Shown here piece after piece: positions 18,996 through 23,917 of a stretch of DNA of 64,000 bases. The position numbers and the translations under genes were made by a program. How positions within the stretch are numbered: the first letter of the stretch is position 1; each line of letters begins with the position of its first letter. The notes under the pieces were generated by a model. It was not told the origin of the DNA. It searched no databases and saw only the letters and a list, made by a program, of their open reading frames with translations. Source of the stretch: Isoalcanivorax pacificus W11-5 (lineage in GTDB: Bacteria > Pseudomonadota > Gammaproteobacteria > Pseudomonadales > Alcanivoracaceae); contig NZ_CP004387.1 of NCBI RefSeq assembly GCF_000299335.2, positions 3,550,994-3,614,993 of the forward strand, written 5' to 3'.

Positions 18996-19172
18996 ATGTA
19001 CACCGACCGGCTATTGATCATCTTCATTCTCGGCACCTACCTGCTGTCGCCGGCCATCATCGAATGGTGGAGCGAAGGCGGCCAGGCCTGGTATCGCCCG
19101 TACCTGATGTGGCTGCTGCTGATCGGGTTGTGTTACTGGATTGGCAAGAGCCGGGATTTCGATGGCCTATAG
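18996..19172 (+). CDS. cbrX: CbrX-like small membrane peptide
   Basis: This 58-residue frame encodes two hydrophobic segments (LLIIFILGTYLLSPAII and YLMWLLLIGLCYWIG) joined by a short loop EWWSEGGQAWYRP. Its last 11 bases overlap the cbrA start at 19162. In Pseudomonas putida a small reading frame, cbrX, sits at the same place and is co-transcribed and translationally coupled with cbrA. Size, position, overlap and hydrophobic character all fit. I assign the name by this synteny rather than by residue-level identity. Confidence 0.75.
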   Translation: MYTDRLLIIFILGTYLLSPAIIEWWSEGGQAWYRPYLMWLLLIGLCYWIGKSRDFDGL

Positions 19173-22098
19173 TTTCTCGCAGGTGTTCCTGATTGCGCTG
19201 GGCTACCTGCTGTTTTTGTTCATGGTGGCCTGGATCACCGATCGCGGCTGGCTGCCGGCACGGCTGGTGCGGCACCCGGCGGTGTACGTGTTCTCGCTCG
19301 GCGTGTATGCCAGCGCCTGGGCCATCTACGGCAGCATCGGCTACGCGCACCAGTACGGCTACAACTTCCTGGCCTATTTCCTCGGCATCTCCGGCGTGTT
19401 CATGCTGGCACCGATCCTGCTGGCGCCGATCCTGCGCCTGACCACCACCCACCAGCTCGGCTCACTGGCGGACCTGTTTGCGTTCCGCTATCGCAGCCGG
19501 CTGGTCGGCGGCATGACCGCACTGATGATGCTGATCGGCATGCTGCCGCTGCTGTCGCTGCAGATCAAAGCCGTGGCCGAATCGATCCAGTTGCTCACCG
19601 GCGAAGACGATCCCGGCGGGCTGGCGTTCTGGTTCTGCCTGCTGATCACCCTGTTCGCGATCCTGTTCGGTGCGCGCCACGCCACCGCGCGGGAAAAACA
19701 CGAAGGGCTGGTCGTCGCCATCGCCACCGAATCGCTGATCAAGGTGGTGGCGCTGGTGACGCTGACGCTGCTCGGCCTGTTCGGTGTATTCGGCGGGCCG
19801 GGCGGCCTGAGCGAGTGGCTGCAACAGCACCCGGAAGCGCTGACCAACCTGTACCACCCGCTGCAGGACGGCACCTGGCATTCGATGATCCTGGCGTTCT
19901 TCGTCTCCGCGGTAGTGATGCCGCACATGTTCTACATGGCCTTTACCGAGAACCTGAACCCGCGCGCGCTGATGACGGCGAGCTGGGGCCTGCCGCTGCT
20001 GCTGCTGGTCATGGCACTGTGCATTCCGATCATCCTGTGGGCCGCCGCCGCCGCCAACGTGGTCGCCACGCCGGACTACTACGCCATCGCCGTGGGCAGC
20101 CTCAGCGGTCGCCACGGCGCCCTGCTTGCCTACGTGGCCGGGCTGGCCGGCGCCAGCGGCATGCTGATCGTGGCCACGCTGGCACTGTCCTCCATGACCC
20201 TCAATCACCTGGTGCTGCCGGCACGCACCCGGCCGCTGGACGAGAGCCTGTACCGCTGGCTGCTGTGGGCGCGGCGGCTGCTGATCTGCGGCATCCTGGC
20301 ACTGGCCTATCTGTTCTACGTCGCCGCCGGCGACCGCCACACGCTGACCGAACTGGCGGTGCTGTCCTTCGTCGCCACGCTGCAGTTCGTACCGGGGCTG
20401 ATCGGCGCCCTGTTCTGGCCCGGCGCCAACCGCAACGGGCTGTTCTGCGGCCTGGTGGCGGGCTTCGTGGTGTGGGCGCTGGCTCTGCTGCTGCCGATGC
20501 TGTTCCCGTCCTGGCAGCCGACCGAACTGTTTGAGCTGCTGGAGATCAGCCGCCGCTCGCCGGCCGCACAATGGCACCACGTGGCGATGGCCTCGATCAT
20601 CGCCAACAGCGTGGTGTTCGCCCTGGTGTCGCTGTTTACCCGCACATCCAGTGCCGAGCGCAATGCCGCCGACACCTGCGCCGTGGACAGCCTGCGGCGG
20701 CCCTTCCGCTGGGAACTGGAAGCCGACAGCGTGGACGATTTCGTGCAGTCCCTGACCGACCCCCTGGGCCCGGTGACCGCCGAACGCGAAGTAAACCTGG
20801 CGCTGCGCGACCTGAACCTGACCCGTGCCGAAACCCGGCCCTATGCGCTGCGCCGCCTGCGCGACCAGGTGGAAACCAACCTCTCCGGCCTGCTCGGGCC
20901 GTCGGTGGCGCACCAGATCGTCGACGATCACCTGCCCTACAAGCCACAGGCAGAAAGTGAGTCCAGCGAGGATATCCAGTTCATCGAATCGCGCCTGGAA
21001 CAGTATCGCGACCGGCTGTCCGGCCTCGCCGCCGAGCTCGACAGCCTGCGCCGCTTCCACCGGCAGACGCTGCTGGAATTGCCGATGGGCGTGATCTCGC
21101 TCGGCGCCGACGGCGAGATCATCGGCTGGAACCTGGCCATGGAACAGCTCACCGGCATCAGTGCCCGGCGCACCATCGGCTCACGCCTGAGCTCACTGCC
21201 TCCCCCCTGGAATGCGCTGCTGTACAGCTTCGCCCAGGGCGACTCGCCGCGCGAGCCGCAGGCCGAGTTCACACAGCACGGCCAGCAGCGCATCCTCAGC
21301 CTGCACAAATCGCAGGTGCAGGGCGCCATGCCCGGCGAGCGCGCCGGCGGGCAGGTGATCGTGATCGAGGAGGTCACGGACCTGCATGCCATGGAAGCAC
21401 GGCTGACCCACAACGAACGGCTCGCCTCCATCGGCCGGCTGGCCGCTGGCGTGGCGCACGAGATCGGCAACCCGGTCACCGCCATCGCCTGCCTGGCGCA
21501 GAACCTGGATCATGAAGTGGAGAGCGGCGAAATCCGGCAGGCCGCCACCCAGATCGTCGAGCAGACCCGGCGCATCAGCCGTATCGTCGAATCCCTGGTG
21601 ACTTTCAGCCACAGTGGCGGCACCCAGTTTGCGGTGCAGGGGCCAGTGTCCCTGGACGATACCGTGACCGAGGCGATCAACCTGCTGCGGCTGGACCCGG
21701 ACCGGCGCGGCCAGGTATTTGCCAACCACTGCAACCCGGAGCATCGCGTCCGGGGCGACAACCAGCGGCTGCTGCAGGTGTTCGTCAACCTGCTCGCCAA
21801 CGCCGCTGACGCCTCCCCGGACGACGCGCCGATCACGGTACGCAGCCGCATGCTGGAACAGACGGTGGAGGTGGAAATCGAAGACCGTGGGCACGGCATA
21901 CCGCCGGAGCTGCGCGACACCCTGTTCGAGCCCTTTGTCACCAGCAAACCCGCAGGCCGGGGCACGGGCCTTGGTCTGGCACTGGTTTACAGTATCATTG
22001 AGGACCATTTTGGCAGCATCCGCGCGGAAAGCCCGGTGGCTGGCCAACGTGGCACACGCTTCATCATCACACTGCCGGGCTTCTCTGAAGAGGCCTGA
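19162..22098 (+). CDS. cbrA: CbrA sensor histidine kinase with SLC5-type transporter domain
   Basis: CbrA is the sensor of the CbrAB system that controls carbon and nitrogen catabolite balance and histidine use. The 978-residue product begins with about 13 membrane segments of the sodium:solute symporter family (residues 1-500), then a linker, a PAS domain (near 630-740), a dimerisation/phosphoacceptor domain with GVAHEIGNP (His near 766), and a HATPase domain with GHGIPPELRDTLFEPF and RGTGLGLALV. ATG 19162 overlaps cbrX by 11 bases. The frame extends to TTG 19141, but the hydrophobic start MAYSFSQVFLIALGY supports 19162. cbrB follows after 20 bases. Confidence 0.93.
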   Translation: MAYSFSQVFLIALGYLLFLFMVAWITDRGWLPARLVRHPAVYVFSLGVYASAWAIYGSIGYAHQYGYNFLAYFLGISGVFMLAPILLAPILRLTTTHQLGSLADLFAFRYRSRLVGGMTALMMLIGMLPLLSLQIKAVAESIQLLTGEDDPGGLAFWFCLLITLFAILFGARHATAREKHEGLVVAIATESLIKVVALVTLTLLGLFGVFGGPGGLSEWLQQHPEALTNLYHPLQDGTWHSMILAFFVSAVVMPHMFYMAFTENLNPRALMTASWGLPLLLLVMALCIPIILWAAAAANVVATPDYYAIAVGSLSGRHGALLAYVAGLAGASGMLIVATLALSSMTLNHLVLPARTRPLDESLYRWLLWARRLLICGILALAYLFYVAAGDRHTLTELAVLSFVATLQFVPGLIGALFWPGANRNGLFCGLVAGFVVWALALLLPMLFPSWQPTELFELLEISRRSPAAQWHHVAMASIIANSVVFALVSLFTRTSSAERNAADTCAVDSLRRPFRWELEADSVDDFVQSLTDPLGPVTAEREVNLALRDLNLTRAETRPYALRRLRDQVETNLSGLLGPSVAHQIVDDHLPYKPQAESESSEDIQFIESRLEQYRDRLSGLAAELDSLRRFHRQTLLELPMGVISLGADGEIIGWNLAMEQLTGISARRTIGSRLSSLPPPWNALLYSFAQGDSPREPQAEFTQHGQQRILSLHKSQVQGAMPGERAGGQVIVIEEVTDLHAMEARLTHNERLASIGRLAAGVAHEIGNPVTAIACLAQNLDHEVESGEIRQAATQIVEQTRRISRIVESLVTFSHSGGTQFAVQGPVSLDDTVTEAINLLRLDPDRRGQVFANHCNPEHRVRGDNQRLLQVFVNLLANAADASPDDAPITVRSRMLEQTVEVEIEDRGHGIPPELRDTLFEPFVTSKPAGRGTGLGLALVYSIIEDHFGSIRAESPVAGQRGTRFIITLPGFSEEA

Positions 22099-22118: not shown

Positions 22119-23498
22119 ATGAGCCATATTCTGATTGTCGAGGACGAGCCGGTTATCCGGGGCGCACTGCGCAAGCTGCTGGAGCGGCATGAACACACCG
22201 TCGTGGAAGCGGCCTCGGCCGAGGCGGCCCGTGAATACGATCTGGCCAACTTCGACCTGATCATCAGCGACCTGCGCCTGCCGGGCGCCAGCGGCACCGA
22301 GCTGATCAGCCTGGCACGGCCCACGCCGGTACTGATCATGACCAGCTACGCCAGCCTGCGCTCGGCGGTGGACGCCATGCGCCAGGGCGCGGTGGACTAC
22401 ATCGCCAAGCCATTCGATCACGACGAAATGGTGCTGGCGGTGGACCGCATCCTCAAGGAAGGCACGCTCAAGCGTAAGAACGAAGCGCTGCGCAACGATG
22501 TGGCACGCAACTACCCGGTACAGGAAATGCTCGGCGAATGCCCGGCAATGCAGGAGCTGTTCCGCCGCATCGAGAAGATCGCCCCGACCGAAACCAGTGT
22601 GCTGATCACCGGCGAAGCCGGCACCGGCAAGGAACTGGTGGCCCGCGCCCTGCACGAGCGCAGCAGCCGCCGGCGCGGGCCGCTGGTGGTGCTCAACTGC
22701 GCCGCCATGCCCGGCCCGCAACTGGAAGCCGAGCTATTCGGCCACGAGAAAGATGCCCTGCCCGGTGCCGACGACACCAAGCGTGGCCTGGTCGAGGCGG
22801 CGGATGGCGGCACCCTGTTTCTGGACGAGGTGGGCGAATTGTCGATGGACGCCCAGGTCCGCCTGCTGCATCTGTTGCAGGATGGCGAGAGCACCCGCCT
22901 GGGCGCCCTGCATGGCCGGCCGCTGGACGTGCGCCTGGTCGTCGCCACGCCGCGCCTGCTCGACGCCCGTGTGGCGGCCGGGCAGTTCCGCAAGGATCTC
23001 TACTACCGCCTGAACGTACTGCAACTGAGCCTGCCGCCGCTGCGCGAACGCGGCGAGGACATCGGCCTGCTGGCCCACGCCCTGCTGTCCCGCCTGTGCG
23101 AGCGCCATAACAGCCCCGAATTACATTTTGATGAAAGCGCCCTGGAAGCCATGAACCGCTATAGCTGGCCAGGCAACGTGCGCGAGCTGGAAAATGCCAT
23201 CGAGCGCGCCGTGATCCTGGCCGACGGGCCATCCATCACCCCCGACCTGCTGGCCATTTCCGCCGAGGCACCGGCCGCCCAGCCGGCGCAACCGGTGGCC
23301 GCCAGCCCACGCCGGCTGTTCCAGGACCCGCAGGAAGACCTGTCGCTGGAGGACTACTTCACCCGCTTCGTGCTGGAGAACCAGGACGCCATGACCGAAA
23401 CCGAGCTGGCCCAGAAACTCGGCATCAGCCGTAAATGCCTGTGGGAACGCCGCCAGAGGCTGGGCATTCCCCGGCGTCGCAGCAACAGCGTCACCTGA
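22119..23498 (+). CDS. cbrB: CbrB NtrC-family response regulator with atypical GAFTGA loop
   Basis: CbrB is the response regulator paired with CbrA. The 459-residue protein has a receiver domain (phosphoacceptor Asp in LIISDLRLPG), an AAA+ domain with Walker A GEAGTGKE, Walker B GGTLFLDEVGEL and arginine-finger region YYRLNVLQLSLPPLRERGEDI, and a C-terminal Fis-type helix-turn-helix (TETELAQKLGISRKCLWERRQRLGIPRR) very like Pseudomonas CbrB. The loop that touches sigma54, normally GAFTGA, reads DALPGA at residues 212-217, losing the key Phe and Thr. Either this regulator has lost normal sigma54 activation or it uses a different contact. GAGG lies eight bases before the ATG. Confidence 0.92.
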   Translation: MSHILIVEDEPVIRGALRKLLERHEHTVVEAASAEAAREYDLANFDLIISDLRLPGASGTELISLARPTPVLIMTSYASLRSAVDAMRQGAVDYIAKPFDHDEMVLAVDRILKEGTLKRKNEALRNDVARNYPVQEMLGECPAMQELFRRIEKIAPTETSVLITGEAGTGKELVARALHERSSRRRGPLVVLNCAAMPGPQLEAELFGHEKDALPGADDTKRGLVEAADGGTLFLDEVGELSMDAQVRLLHLLQDGESTRLGALHGRPLDVRLVVATPRLLDARVAAGQFRKDLYYRLNVLQLSLPPLRERGEDIGLLAHALLSRLCERHNSPELHFDESALEAMNRYSWPGNVRELENAIERAVILADGPSITPDLLAISAEAPAAQPAQPVAASPRRLFQDPQEDLSLEDYFTRFVLENQDAMTETELAQKLGISRKCLWERRQRLGIPRRRSNSVT

Positions 23499-23524
23499 CG
23501 AGCGGCAGGCGTGTGTGGAACACC

Positions 23525-23551
23525 TGTTACCGTCCTACACACGCAGTAACA
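23525..23551. promoter_or_regulatory. Candidate CbrB binding site (TGTTAC/GTAACA half-sites)
   Basis: TGTTAC (23525-23530) and GTAACA (23546-23551) form a perfect dyad with a 15-base spacer, 27 bases after the cbrB stop and about 110 bases before the A-rich RNA. TGTTAC-type half-sites have been described for CbrB upstream of crcZ in Pseudomonas, which is why I mark this. Binding is not shown. Confidence 0.55.
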
Positions 23552-23659
23552 ACATGACGGAACAGTCACGCAAAAGCAGCGAACACCCTTCACACAAAAT
23601 TTGTTAACTTGTTGATACATAAGAGTTTTTCAAATTGTTGCATTGGAAGGGGGGTGAAT

Positions 23660-23852
23660 GCAGGATGAACACACGCCAGCGAACAACAAAAACAGCGGCG
23701 AGGCTCAAAAAAAGAATAACAATTTCATGAGTCAATGCAGTGCTTGTCATGACCGGATTGTCATGACCACAAGGCAGAAAACAAAACAAACAATAACAAT
23801 AACAGAATCAGCGCAATCATAAGGGACCTCAGCCATGCTGGGGTCCCTTTTT
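23660..23852 (+). ncRNA. crcZ: CrcZ-like regulatory RNA candidate (Hfq/Crc sponge)
   Basis: Between cbrB and pcnB, where Pseudomonas carries crcZ, lies a non-coding stretch with several AANAANAA runs: AACAACAA at 23682, AAGAATAACAA at 23712, and AACAAACAATAACAATAACA at 23787-23806. These are the A-rich motifs bound by Hfq with Crc in catabolite repression; CrcZ titrates them away. It ends at a strong terminator. Two TTGTCATGACC repeats (23744 and 23758) could fold into a stem. The 5' end is uncertain: I found no good sigma54 or sigma70 promoter, so the start is a guess. At about 190 bases it would be shorter than Pseudomonas CrcZ. Confidence 0.62.
23821..23852 (+). terminator. Rho-independent terminator of the CrcZ-like RNA
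   Basis: A twelve-pair stem, AAGGGACCTCAG with CTGGGGTCCCTT and one T-G wobble, closes a CCATG loop and is followed by a run of T. It is one of the clearest terminators in the window and defines the RNA 3' end at about 23850. Confidence 0.92.
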
Positions 23853-23917
23853 CATTTGGGGCGGCTGCACCGCCCGGCGGCGGCGGGCCAAAGGGCTTCA
23901 AGCTCGTCGCCCGAAGC

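Follow-up and report, generated by a model that had tools for sequence, protein, structure and literature searches.

A candidate crcZ-type gene in Alcanivoracaceae with a sigma70-like promoter behind a CbrB-type enhancer, and its predicted Hfq sponge RNA

Does the Pseudomonas circuit in which CbrB controls the sponge RNA CrcZ extend beyond the Pseudomonadaceae, and does it take the same form there? The question is raised by the spacer between cbrB and pcnB in Isoalcanivorax pacificus W11-5, a member of the Alcanivoracaceae and thus a host outside the Pseudomonadaceae. We analyzed this spacer within a 64,000-nucleotide stretch of a single contig of 4,168,427 bp (G000:C1:3550994-3614993), referred to here as the window; unless stated otherwise, coordinates are positions in it. 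An original prediction, made from the sequence alone, had placed an A-rich, CrcZ-like RNA at 23499-23852, proposed that it sequesters Hfq and Crc, and suggested that it would extend the circuit beyond the Pseudomonadaceae. We found that the candidate RNA holds up and that the host does lie outside that family. The system is not, however, a plain extension of the Pseudomonas circuit, because CbrB is without its GAFTGA loop and the sigma54 promoter is likewise missing. The reading that we favor, with a probability of about 0.8, is that the spacer carries a crcZ-type gene at which CbrB, acting from an enhancer with the aid of a bend made by integration host factor (IHF), would drive a sigma70-type rather than a sigma54 promoter, yielding an RNA of ~184 nt that would serve as an Hfq sponge without Crc, and that the switch took place in the Alcanivoracaceae ancestor.

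The A-rich RNA between cbrB and pcnB

The window contains, in this order, a cbrA-like kinase gene, cbrB, a spacer of 502 nt, and pcnB, and the candidate RNA lies where CrcZ is located, between cbrB and pcnB. As predicted, we found no coding gene in the spacer: there is no frame of at least 80 amino acids on its plus strand, and one minus-strand frame of 88 amino acids (23354-23620) overlaps cbrB. The RNA and its parts are as follows.

23673-23856, plus strand: predicted CrcZ-like RNA of ~184 nt, its start placed from the -10 box (transcription start site within a few bases) and its extent from the RNA alignment and the family model R1
23674-23700, plus strand: hairpin 1 (CGCC...GGCG) with AAN repeats in its loop, from single-sequence folds
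23702-23733, plus strand: hairpin 2 (GGCTC...GAGTC in the host) with AAN repeats in its loop, from single folds and the RNAalifold consensus
23778-23804, plus strand: AAN-rich tail, unpaired in the host fold, from folds, alignment, and shuffle test
23805-23815, plus strand: GAATCAGCGCA box directly before the terminator, near-invariant in the aligned family RNAs
23821-23849, plus strand: stem of an intrinsic terminator, followed by T's, from the sequence; 11 consensus pairs, 6 of them changed on both sides

The spacer holds eight overlapping matches to AANAANAA, all on the plus strand, in clusters at 23682-23692, 23709-23722, and 23789-23802. At least five had been predicted; the match AACAATAACAATAACA begins at 23789 and not, as first given, at 23791. 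Together with the Pfam-supported flanking genes and the terminator, which had been placed correctly at 23821-23852, these matches bear out the candidate. The predicted span needs revision at its 5' end, since it begins at the cbrB stop codon and the RNA would begin only near 23673. R1, an RNA model built from the same family sequences, places the host RNA at genome positions 3574665-3574848, which correspond to 23672-23855 of the window. The predicted length of ~184 nt, against the 398 positions of the Rfam CrcZ model, agrees with the expectation that the RNA would be about half as long as CrcZ.

Motif content exceeds chance. In the whole window, AANAANAA is matched 30 times where 4.57 matches are expected, a count that 0 of 100 shuffles reached. 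The host RNA copy (L001; 183 nt) has 8 matches against 0.77 expected, and 0 of 1,000 dinucleotide shuffles had as many; for 11 of the 43 family RNAs, this test gave P values from 0 to 0.002. Across 45 family genomes, each genome has 7 to 13 matches. Among 57 genomes, the host included, 35 showed similarity to the spacer DNA, and these follow the family boundary: 35 of 36 genomes of the same family and 0 of 21 from other families of the order. With R1, 44 of the 46 family genomes give a single match and G062 gives two partial ones, each on a different contig; the remaining genome (G020), which is 64% complete, gives none. Apart from the two pieces in G062, R1 revealed no paralogues such as CrcY in the 46 genomes.

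The original prediction would have been undermined if the A-rich motifs were not conserved among close relatives, and we found the opposite. In an alignment of 42 distinct RNAs, the three stretches contain 13 AA doublets, 12 of which are present in at least 40 sequences (8 in all 42, 4 in 40 to 41), and 1 of which is present in 28. The base that follows each doublet is free and takes up to four letters. AAN with a free third base is the pattern expected from selection by the distal face of Hfq. The alignment shares a layout of a CGCC...GGCG hairpin, a GGCTC...GAGCC hairpin, a variable third hairpin, the AAN-rich tail, the GAATCAGCGCA box, and the terminator, and hairpins 1 and 3 are seen in single folds, although not in every member.

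The GAATCAGCGCA box bears on a different reading of the RNA, namely, that it has another partner or acts by base pairing (for example, through this box), instead of or besides serving as an Hfq sponge. The conservation of the box equals that of the AAN repeats, and a pure sponge could do without it. Set against this, the AAN periodicity, the three separate stretches, and the free third base point to selection by the Hfq distal face, and we consider another partner quite unlikely. This alternative and those that follow overlap with the favored reading and with one another, and their probabilities do not sum to one.

Enhancer, IHF-like site, and promoter

Upstream of the RNA, we found four further elements, which extend the original prediction by a CbrB-type enhancer, an IHF-like site, and a sigma70-like promoter.

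23525-23551, plus strand: predicted CbrB-type enhancer TGTTACCGTCCTACACACGCAGTAACA, from a pattern search; its core keeps the same position in all 45 family genomes
23605-23617, plus strand: predicted IHF-like site TAACTTGTTGATA, the IHF consensus being YAANNNNTTGATW
23638-23643, plus strand: -35 box TTGCAT, from pattern search and alignment
23661-23666, plus strand: -10 box CAGGAT, with the family consensus CANNAT in 45 of 45 genomes and a spacing of exactly 17

The CbrB site is described as TGTTAC-N12-14-GTAACA-N15-19-GTAACA (PMC8871633); of its three published subsites (F1, R1, and R2), our comparison covered F1 and R1, both of which are matched upstream of the RNA. The pattern TGTTAC-N13-17-GTAACA occurs at one place in the 4.17-Mb host genome, in a search limited to the full pattern. 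From the enhancer start TGTTACC to the -35 box, the distance is 112 to 114 nt in 40 of the 45 family genomes and 101 to 102 nt, about one helical turn less, in the other 5 (G007, G009, G010, G014, and G016); two of these five have GTTACA at the place of the second half-site. In 43 of the 45 genomes, the best IHF-like match is positioned 33 nt upstream of the -35 box; over all 45, this match has no mismatch in 10 and one mismatch in 26. In one genome (G017; L121 / L033), the asymmetric core of the 27-bp enhancer (L033:2089) is inverted in place, and the distance to the -35 box is unchanged at 113 nt. Such an inversion is a change that an enhancer should tolerate.

A sigma70-like TTGCNN-N17-CANNAT is present in all 45 family genomes read (CANNAT in 45, TTGCA in 44, and TTGCC in 1). 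Each genome has exactly one TTG-N3-N17-[CT]A-N3-T that is followed by at least five motifs within 230 nt; a stricter promoter pattern was found in 37 of 45, and this looser one in 45 of 45. Because the looser pattern itself imposes TTG and [CT]A...T, we also made an alignment without imposing the boxes. There, the 35 non-redundant members of the 45 (near-copies dropped) have the -35 and -10 boxes in register and without gaps.

This arrangement bears on two alternatives. In the first, the RNA arises mainly by read-through from cbrB and processing, a reading partly compatible with the favored one, and the boxes at 23638-23666 do not serve as a promoter. Processed CrcZ species described for P. 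putida and A. vinelandii (PMC6292655) offer a precedent, but read-through would not account for an enhancer core, an IHF-like site, and -35 and -10 boxes that keep fixed distances in 45 genomes while the intervening sequence has diverged, and we regard it as unlikely. In the second, CbrB no longer activates crcZ and only occupies its site or represses, leaving the sponge constitutive or under another regulator. A loop-less NtrC that also represses is reported from Caulobacter (PMC10274813). However, an enhancer ~113 or 102 nt upstream of the -35 box together with an IHF-like site suits activation by looping, the ATPase motifs of CbrB are kept, and a weak -10 box may be expected of an activator-dependent promoter. 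This alternative seems to us about as unlikely as the first.

What the family lacks is a sigma54 promoter. In Pseudomonas, an RpoN-dependent -24/-12 promoter stands at crcZ together with a CbrB enhancer and, in many cases, an IHF-like site. In the Alcanivoracaceae, by contrast, the stretch from cbrB to past the promoter reaches a sigma54 score of no more than 2.1 in any of the 45 genomes, the host included, so that no -24/-12 box was recognized there. Of the 63 complete spacers that the named loci contribute outside the family, 62 have a sigma54 matrix score of at least 16.8; only that of Agitococcus, which has no motif, falls short. Since 71 sites from these same loci served to train the matrix, the named-locus scores are not independent; the order-wide set described below is.

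Where the enhancer TGTTAC-N-GTAACA was found outside the family, it mostly lies 121 to 126 nt before the -24 box, and 102 to 103 nt before it in the Thalassolituus, Thalassobium, and Oceanobacter loci. The IHF-like site lies 33 nt from the -35 box within the family and 32 nt from the -24 box outside it, with an exact IHF match at -32 in 17 of the 63 non-family spacers. The -35 box thus lies where the -24 box does relative to the IHF-like site. We dropped the idea that it is a left-over -12 box on account of this distance, and we prefer a conversion of -24 to -35; that the -35 box derives from the -24 box is speculation.

Separately, tandem crcZ-like genes were seen in five cbrB-pcnB spacers (L042, L043, L048, L050, and L055) from Thalassolituus, Bermanella (two loci), Thalassobium, and Oceanobacter records. 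In each spacer, two or three sigma54 promoters stand in a row, and every promoter has a separate set of AANAANAA clusters downstream of it.

The GAFTGA loop of CbrB in the family and the order

The genes around the spacer are the following.

19141-22098, plus strand: cbrA-like sensor histidine kinase, an open reading frame with Pfam HisKA, HATPase_c, and PAS_4 domains and a long N-terminal region
22119-23498, plus strand: cbrB, NtrC-type response regulator with Pfam Response_reg and Sigma54_activat domains; by loop comparison, DALPGA at the GAFTGA loop
24001-25431, plus strand: pcnB, poly(A) polymerase, with Pfam PolyA_pol and two further PolyA_pol domains

The name CbrA is given from the position before cbrB; no Pfam match to an SLC5-type transporter domain was found in the product at 1e-3. 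Host CbrB is 60% identical to CbrB of P. otitidis and is encoded beside the cbrA-like gene, the crcZ-like RNA, and pcnB, as expected of an orthologue.

Host CbrB has DALPGA in place of GAFTGA and so departs from the sigma54-dependent enhancer-binding proteins. GAFTGA or GSFTGA is present in 68 of 68 distinct non-family CbrB proteins and in 0 of 45 family genomes; we counted the family by genome, since its 52 protein sequences include several from the same genomes. The loop is deleted in most family members, and the replacements vary (GAFAAA, GAFAGA, GAFEGA, DALPGA, DAVPGA, GAVAGR, and others), as expected of decay after one switch. The family consensus nevertheless retains Walker A, Walker B, the FRxDLYYRL stretch (arginine-finger region), the Asp of the receiver (REC) domain, and the helix-turn-helix, a combination of lost loop and kept ATPase and DNA-binding motifs that matches the GAFTGA-less NtrC-type activators. 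In a CbrB tree of 53 of the 120 distinct proteins, the family forms one side of a branch supported 100/100, with one very long branch (L018). Besides rpoN, the host keeps two further sigma54 activators of full length, whose loops read GAFTGA and GSFTGA, indicating that the loop loss is specific to CbrB.

Could Alcanivoracaceae CbrB still act with sigma54 through an altered loop, at a promoter too diverged for the matrix? The retained rpoN and two activators would allow it, and three of the family loops (GAFAGA, GAFEGA, and GAFAAA) are near the motif. Yet the best sigma54 score in the 45 family spacers is 2.1, the loop is deleted in most members, and changes to its Phe and Thr are reported to reduce, and mostly to abolish, activation with sigma54 (PMC3162934). 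We consider this the least probable of the alternatives and highly unlikely. For the favored reading, by comparison, there are precedents of activators without the loop at sigma70 promoters in NtrC proteins of R. capsulatus and Caulobacter (PMC10274813) and in TyrR, DhaR, and HupR (PMC3162934).

We surveyed CbrB in 115 genomes drawn evenly from the order and found it in 99, four of them in Alcanivoracaceae. Of the 95 non-family CbrB genomes, 90 were read, representing 40 families, and 88 of these have an intact loop (GAFTGA, GSFTGA, or GAFSGA). pcnB lies within the stretch in 76 genomes, and the spacer has at least four motifs in 70 of these. Where an intact loop and at least four motifs coincide, 67 of 69 genomes have a sigma54 score of at least 8 (68 have the promoter by the strict pattern), and the two that fall below it are those of L199 and L237. 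Neither of the two non-family genomes without the loop reaches that score: G106 has GAISHT and a score of 7.1, and G098 has a deleted loop and a score of -9.9. In the genus mates of G098 (G043 and G158), the loop reads GAFTGA and a promoter of the TGGCACG type follows TGTTAC at 121 nt; G098 itself has TTGCCG-N17-TTAACT 43 nt after TGTTACC. At the sequence level, G098 is an independent co-loss of loop and sigma54 promoter, in one draft genome and with different spacing. Its locus (L230) also contains a shorter A-rich RNA candidate beside the lost loop and the lost promoter.

This distribution, with CbrB spread through the order and usually accompanied by a CrcZ-like spacer and a sigma54 promoter, contrasts with a review and a research paper that describe CbrAB as unique to or exclusive of the Pseudomonadaceae, Pseudomonas and Azotobacter (PMC8871633, PMC6296734). 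Two genomes of family f43 and one of f18 have an intact loop and no CrcZ-like spacer. Short cbrB-pcnB spacers with 0 to 1 motifs beside an intact CbrB loop were seen at L083 (Agitococcus; 310 nt), L228 and L229 (f43; 151 and 142 nt), and L225 (f18; 132 nt). Some CbrB matches contain one in-frame stop (G041 [L199], G155 [L263], G149 and G147 [L235], and G012), and at L199 this stop stands alongside a degraded sigma54 box.

An Hfq sponge without Crc and its relation to known systems

An Hfq gene is present in the host. A Crc query from P. otitidis, which matches solved Crc at 1.6e-160, found nothing above 37.1 bits in the 46 family genomes, with weak matches in 28 and none in the host; the ten best of these 28 are ExoIII, 66 to 73% identical to host ExoIII. 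The host encodes four PF03372 proteins, of which one is ExoIII, one resembles sphingomyelinase C, one is an ExeM-like nuclease, and one is unassigned. In Thalassolituus and Gilvimarinus, Crc-like genes, 46 to 47% identical to Crc, are recovered by the same Pfam search, and Alcanivorax is reported to be without a Crc homologue (PMC9788540). Because no Crc orthologue was recognized in the host or in the 45 other family genomes, sequestering of Crc is unlikely, and we rejected Crc as a partner of the RNA in this family. A CrcZ-like sponge for Hfq outside the Pseudomonadaceae, the other part of the function originally proposed, has good support at the sequence level from synteny, conserved AAN triplets, the CbrB-type enhancer, and the terminator.

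In the mechanism that we propose, the sensor CbrA would phosphorylate CbrB under carbon limitation, and CbrB-P would bind the enhancer at 23525-23551. The DNA would be bent at the IHF-like site (23605-23617); at crcZ and crcY of P. putida, IHF is reported to assist CbrB (PMC6296734). Transcription of the ~184-nt RNA would begin near 23673, at the weak promoter TTGCAT-N17-CAGGAT, by RNA polymerase carrying sigma70 or a sigma factor closely related to it, and not sigma54. The three AAN-repeat stretches of the RNA may then occupy the distal face of Hfq, by which Hfq-repressed mRNAs would be released without Crc. In the Alcanivoracaceae ancestor, the sigma54 -24/-12 promoter would have been replaced by -35/-10 boxes, and CbrB would have lost the loop that contacts sigma54.

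We lean, with less confidence, toward a wider claim. The family would have moved CbrB from sigma54 to sigma70 while keeping the enhancer and the IHF bend, so that CbrB loops from ~150 bp upstream to a housekeeping-type promoter; the -24 element TGGCA would have become the -35 element TTGCA in place; the RNA would be a Crc-free Hfq sponge; and the same double loss would have occurred at least one more time in the order, in G098.

Several observations weigh against the favored reading. An Rfam search of the window at the gathering cut-off gave no match, and the covariance search with the CrcZ model (RF01675) that the original prediction had proposed yielded 16.4 bits, far under the cut-off of 95. 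The control loci from two Pseudomonadaceae scored 327.8 (L058) and 302.7 bits (L060), and 0 of the 10 other loci of the control test, two of them Alcanivoracaceae, were above the cut-off. Model R1 detects relatives outside the family only weakly (best, 28.3 bits; E, 0.02), and the RNAalifold consensus retains hairpin 2 and the terminator only. The backwards control pattern of the enhancer also occurs once in the host genome, and the uniqueness of the enhancer is for that reason weak evidence. In the five genomes with the shorter enhancer distance, no perfect GTAACA stands where the second half-site usually lies, and the IHF-like site has two mismatches in 8 of the 45 family genomes and three in 1. 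The host -10 box, of the CANNAT type, agrees with TATAAT at 3 of 6 positions, and predicted sigma70 promoters at Azotobacter crcZ and crcY are reported to be inactive (PMC6292655), although the case differs in that the sigma54 promoter there is intact. Finally, L199 and L237 keep GAFTGA and yet have a poor sigma54 box. Given the weakness of R1 outside the family and the RF01675 score, descent of the RNA from CrcZ rests on position and layout. It is the location, the motifs, and the enhancer that make the RNA CrcZ-like, not its family score, and we do not claim sequence-level homology of the family RNA with CrcZ.

In the passages covered from the open-licence literature, we found no description of such a circuit in Alcanivoracaceae. 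The family would offer a clear example from nature of an enhancer-binding protein and the promoter that it targets switching sigma factor in concert, alongside one independent case, which makes action at a distance by GAFTGA-less activators at sigma70 promoters directly testable. For these hydrocarbon degraders, which are reported to have no Crc (PMC9788540), the circuit is also a candidate route to carbon catabolite control via Hfq alone.

Three known systems invite comparison. With CrcZ of Pseudomonas (RF01675, with CrcY and CrcX), the host RNA shares the cbrB-pcnB position, the CbrB-type enhancer, the IHF-like site, the AANAANAA clusters, and the intrinsic terminator. It is shorter than CrcZ (~400 nt), and the Alcanivoracaceae system is without a sigma54 promoter, has a single copy, and has no recognized Crc to sequester. 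The CsrR2 candidate of A. dieselolei, described as a CsrA/RsmA sponge (PMC9788540), is likewise an RNA that would titrate a global RNA-binding protein in Alcanivorax; CsrA sponges, however, carry GGA motifs, whereas the host RNA has AAN repeats for Hfq and lies behind a CbrB-type enhancer. Lastly, Alcanivoracaceae CbrB resembles the GAFTGA-less activators at sigma70 promoters (NtrC of Rhodobacter capsulatus and Caulobacter, VpsR, HupR, TyrR, and DhaR) in its lost or altered loop. It differs from them in that a distant enhancer and an IHF-like site are retained and in that the activator and one target promoter can be traced together across the order.
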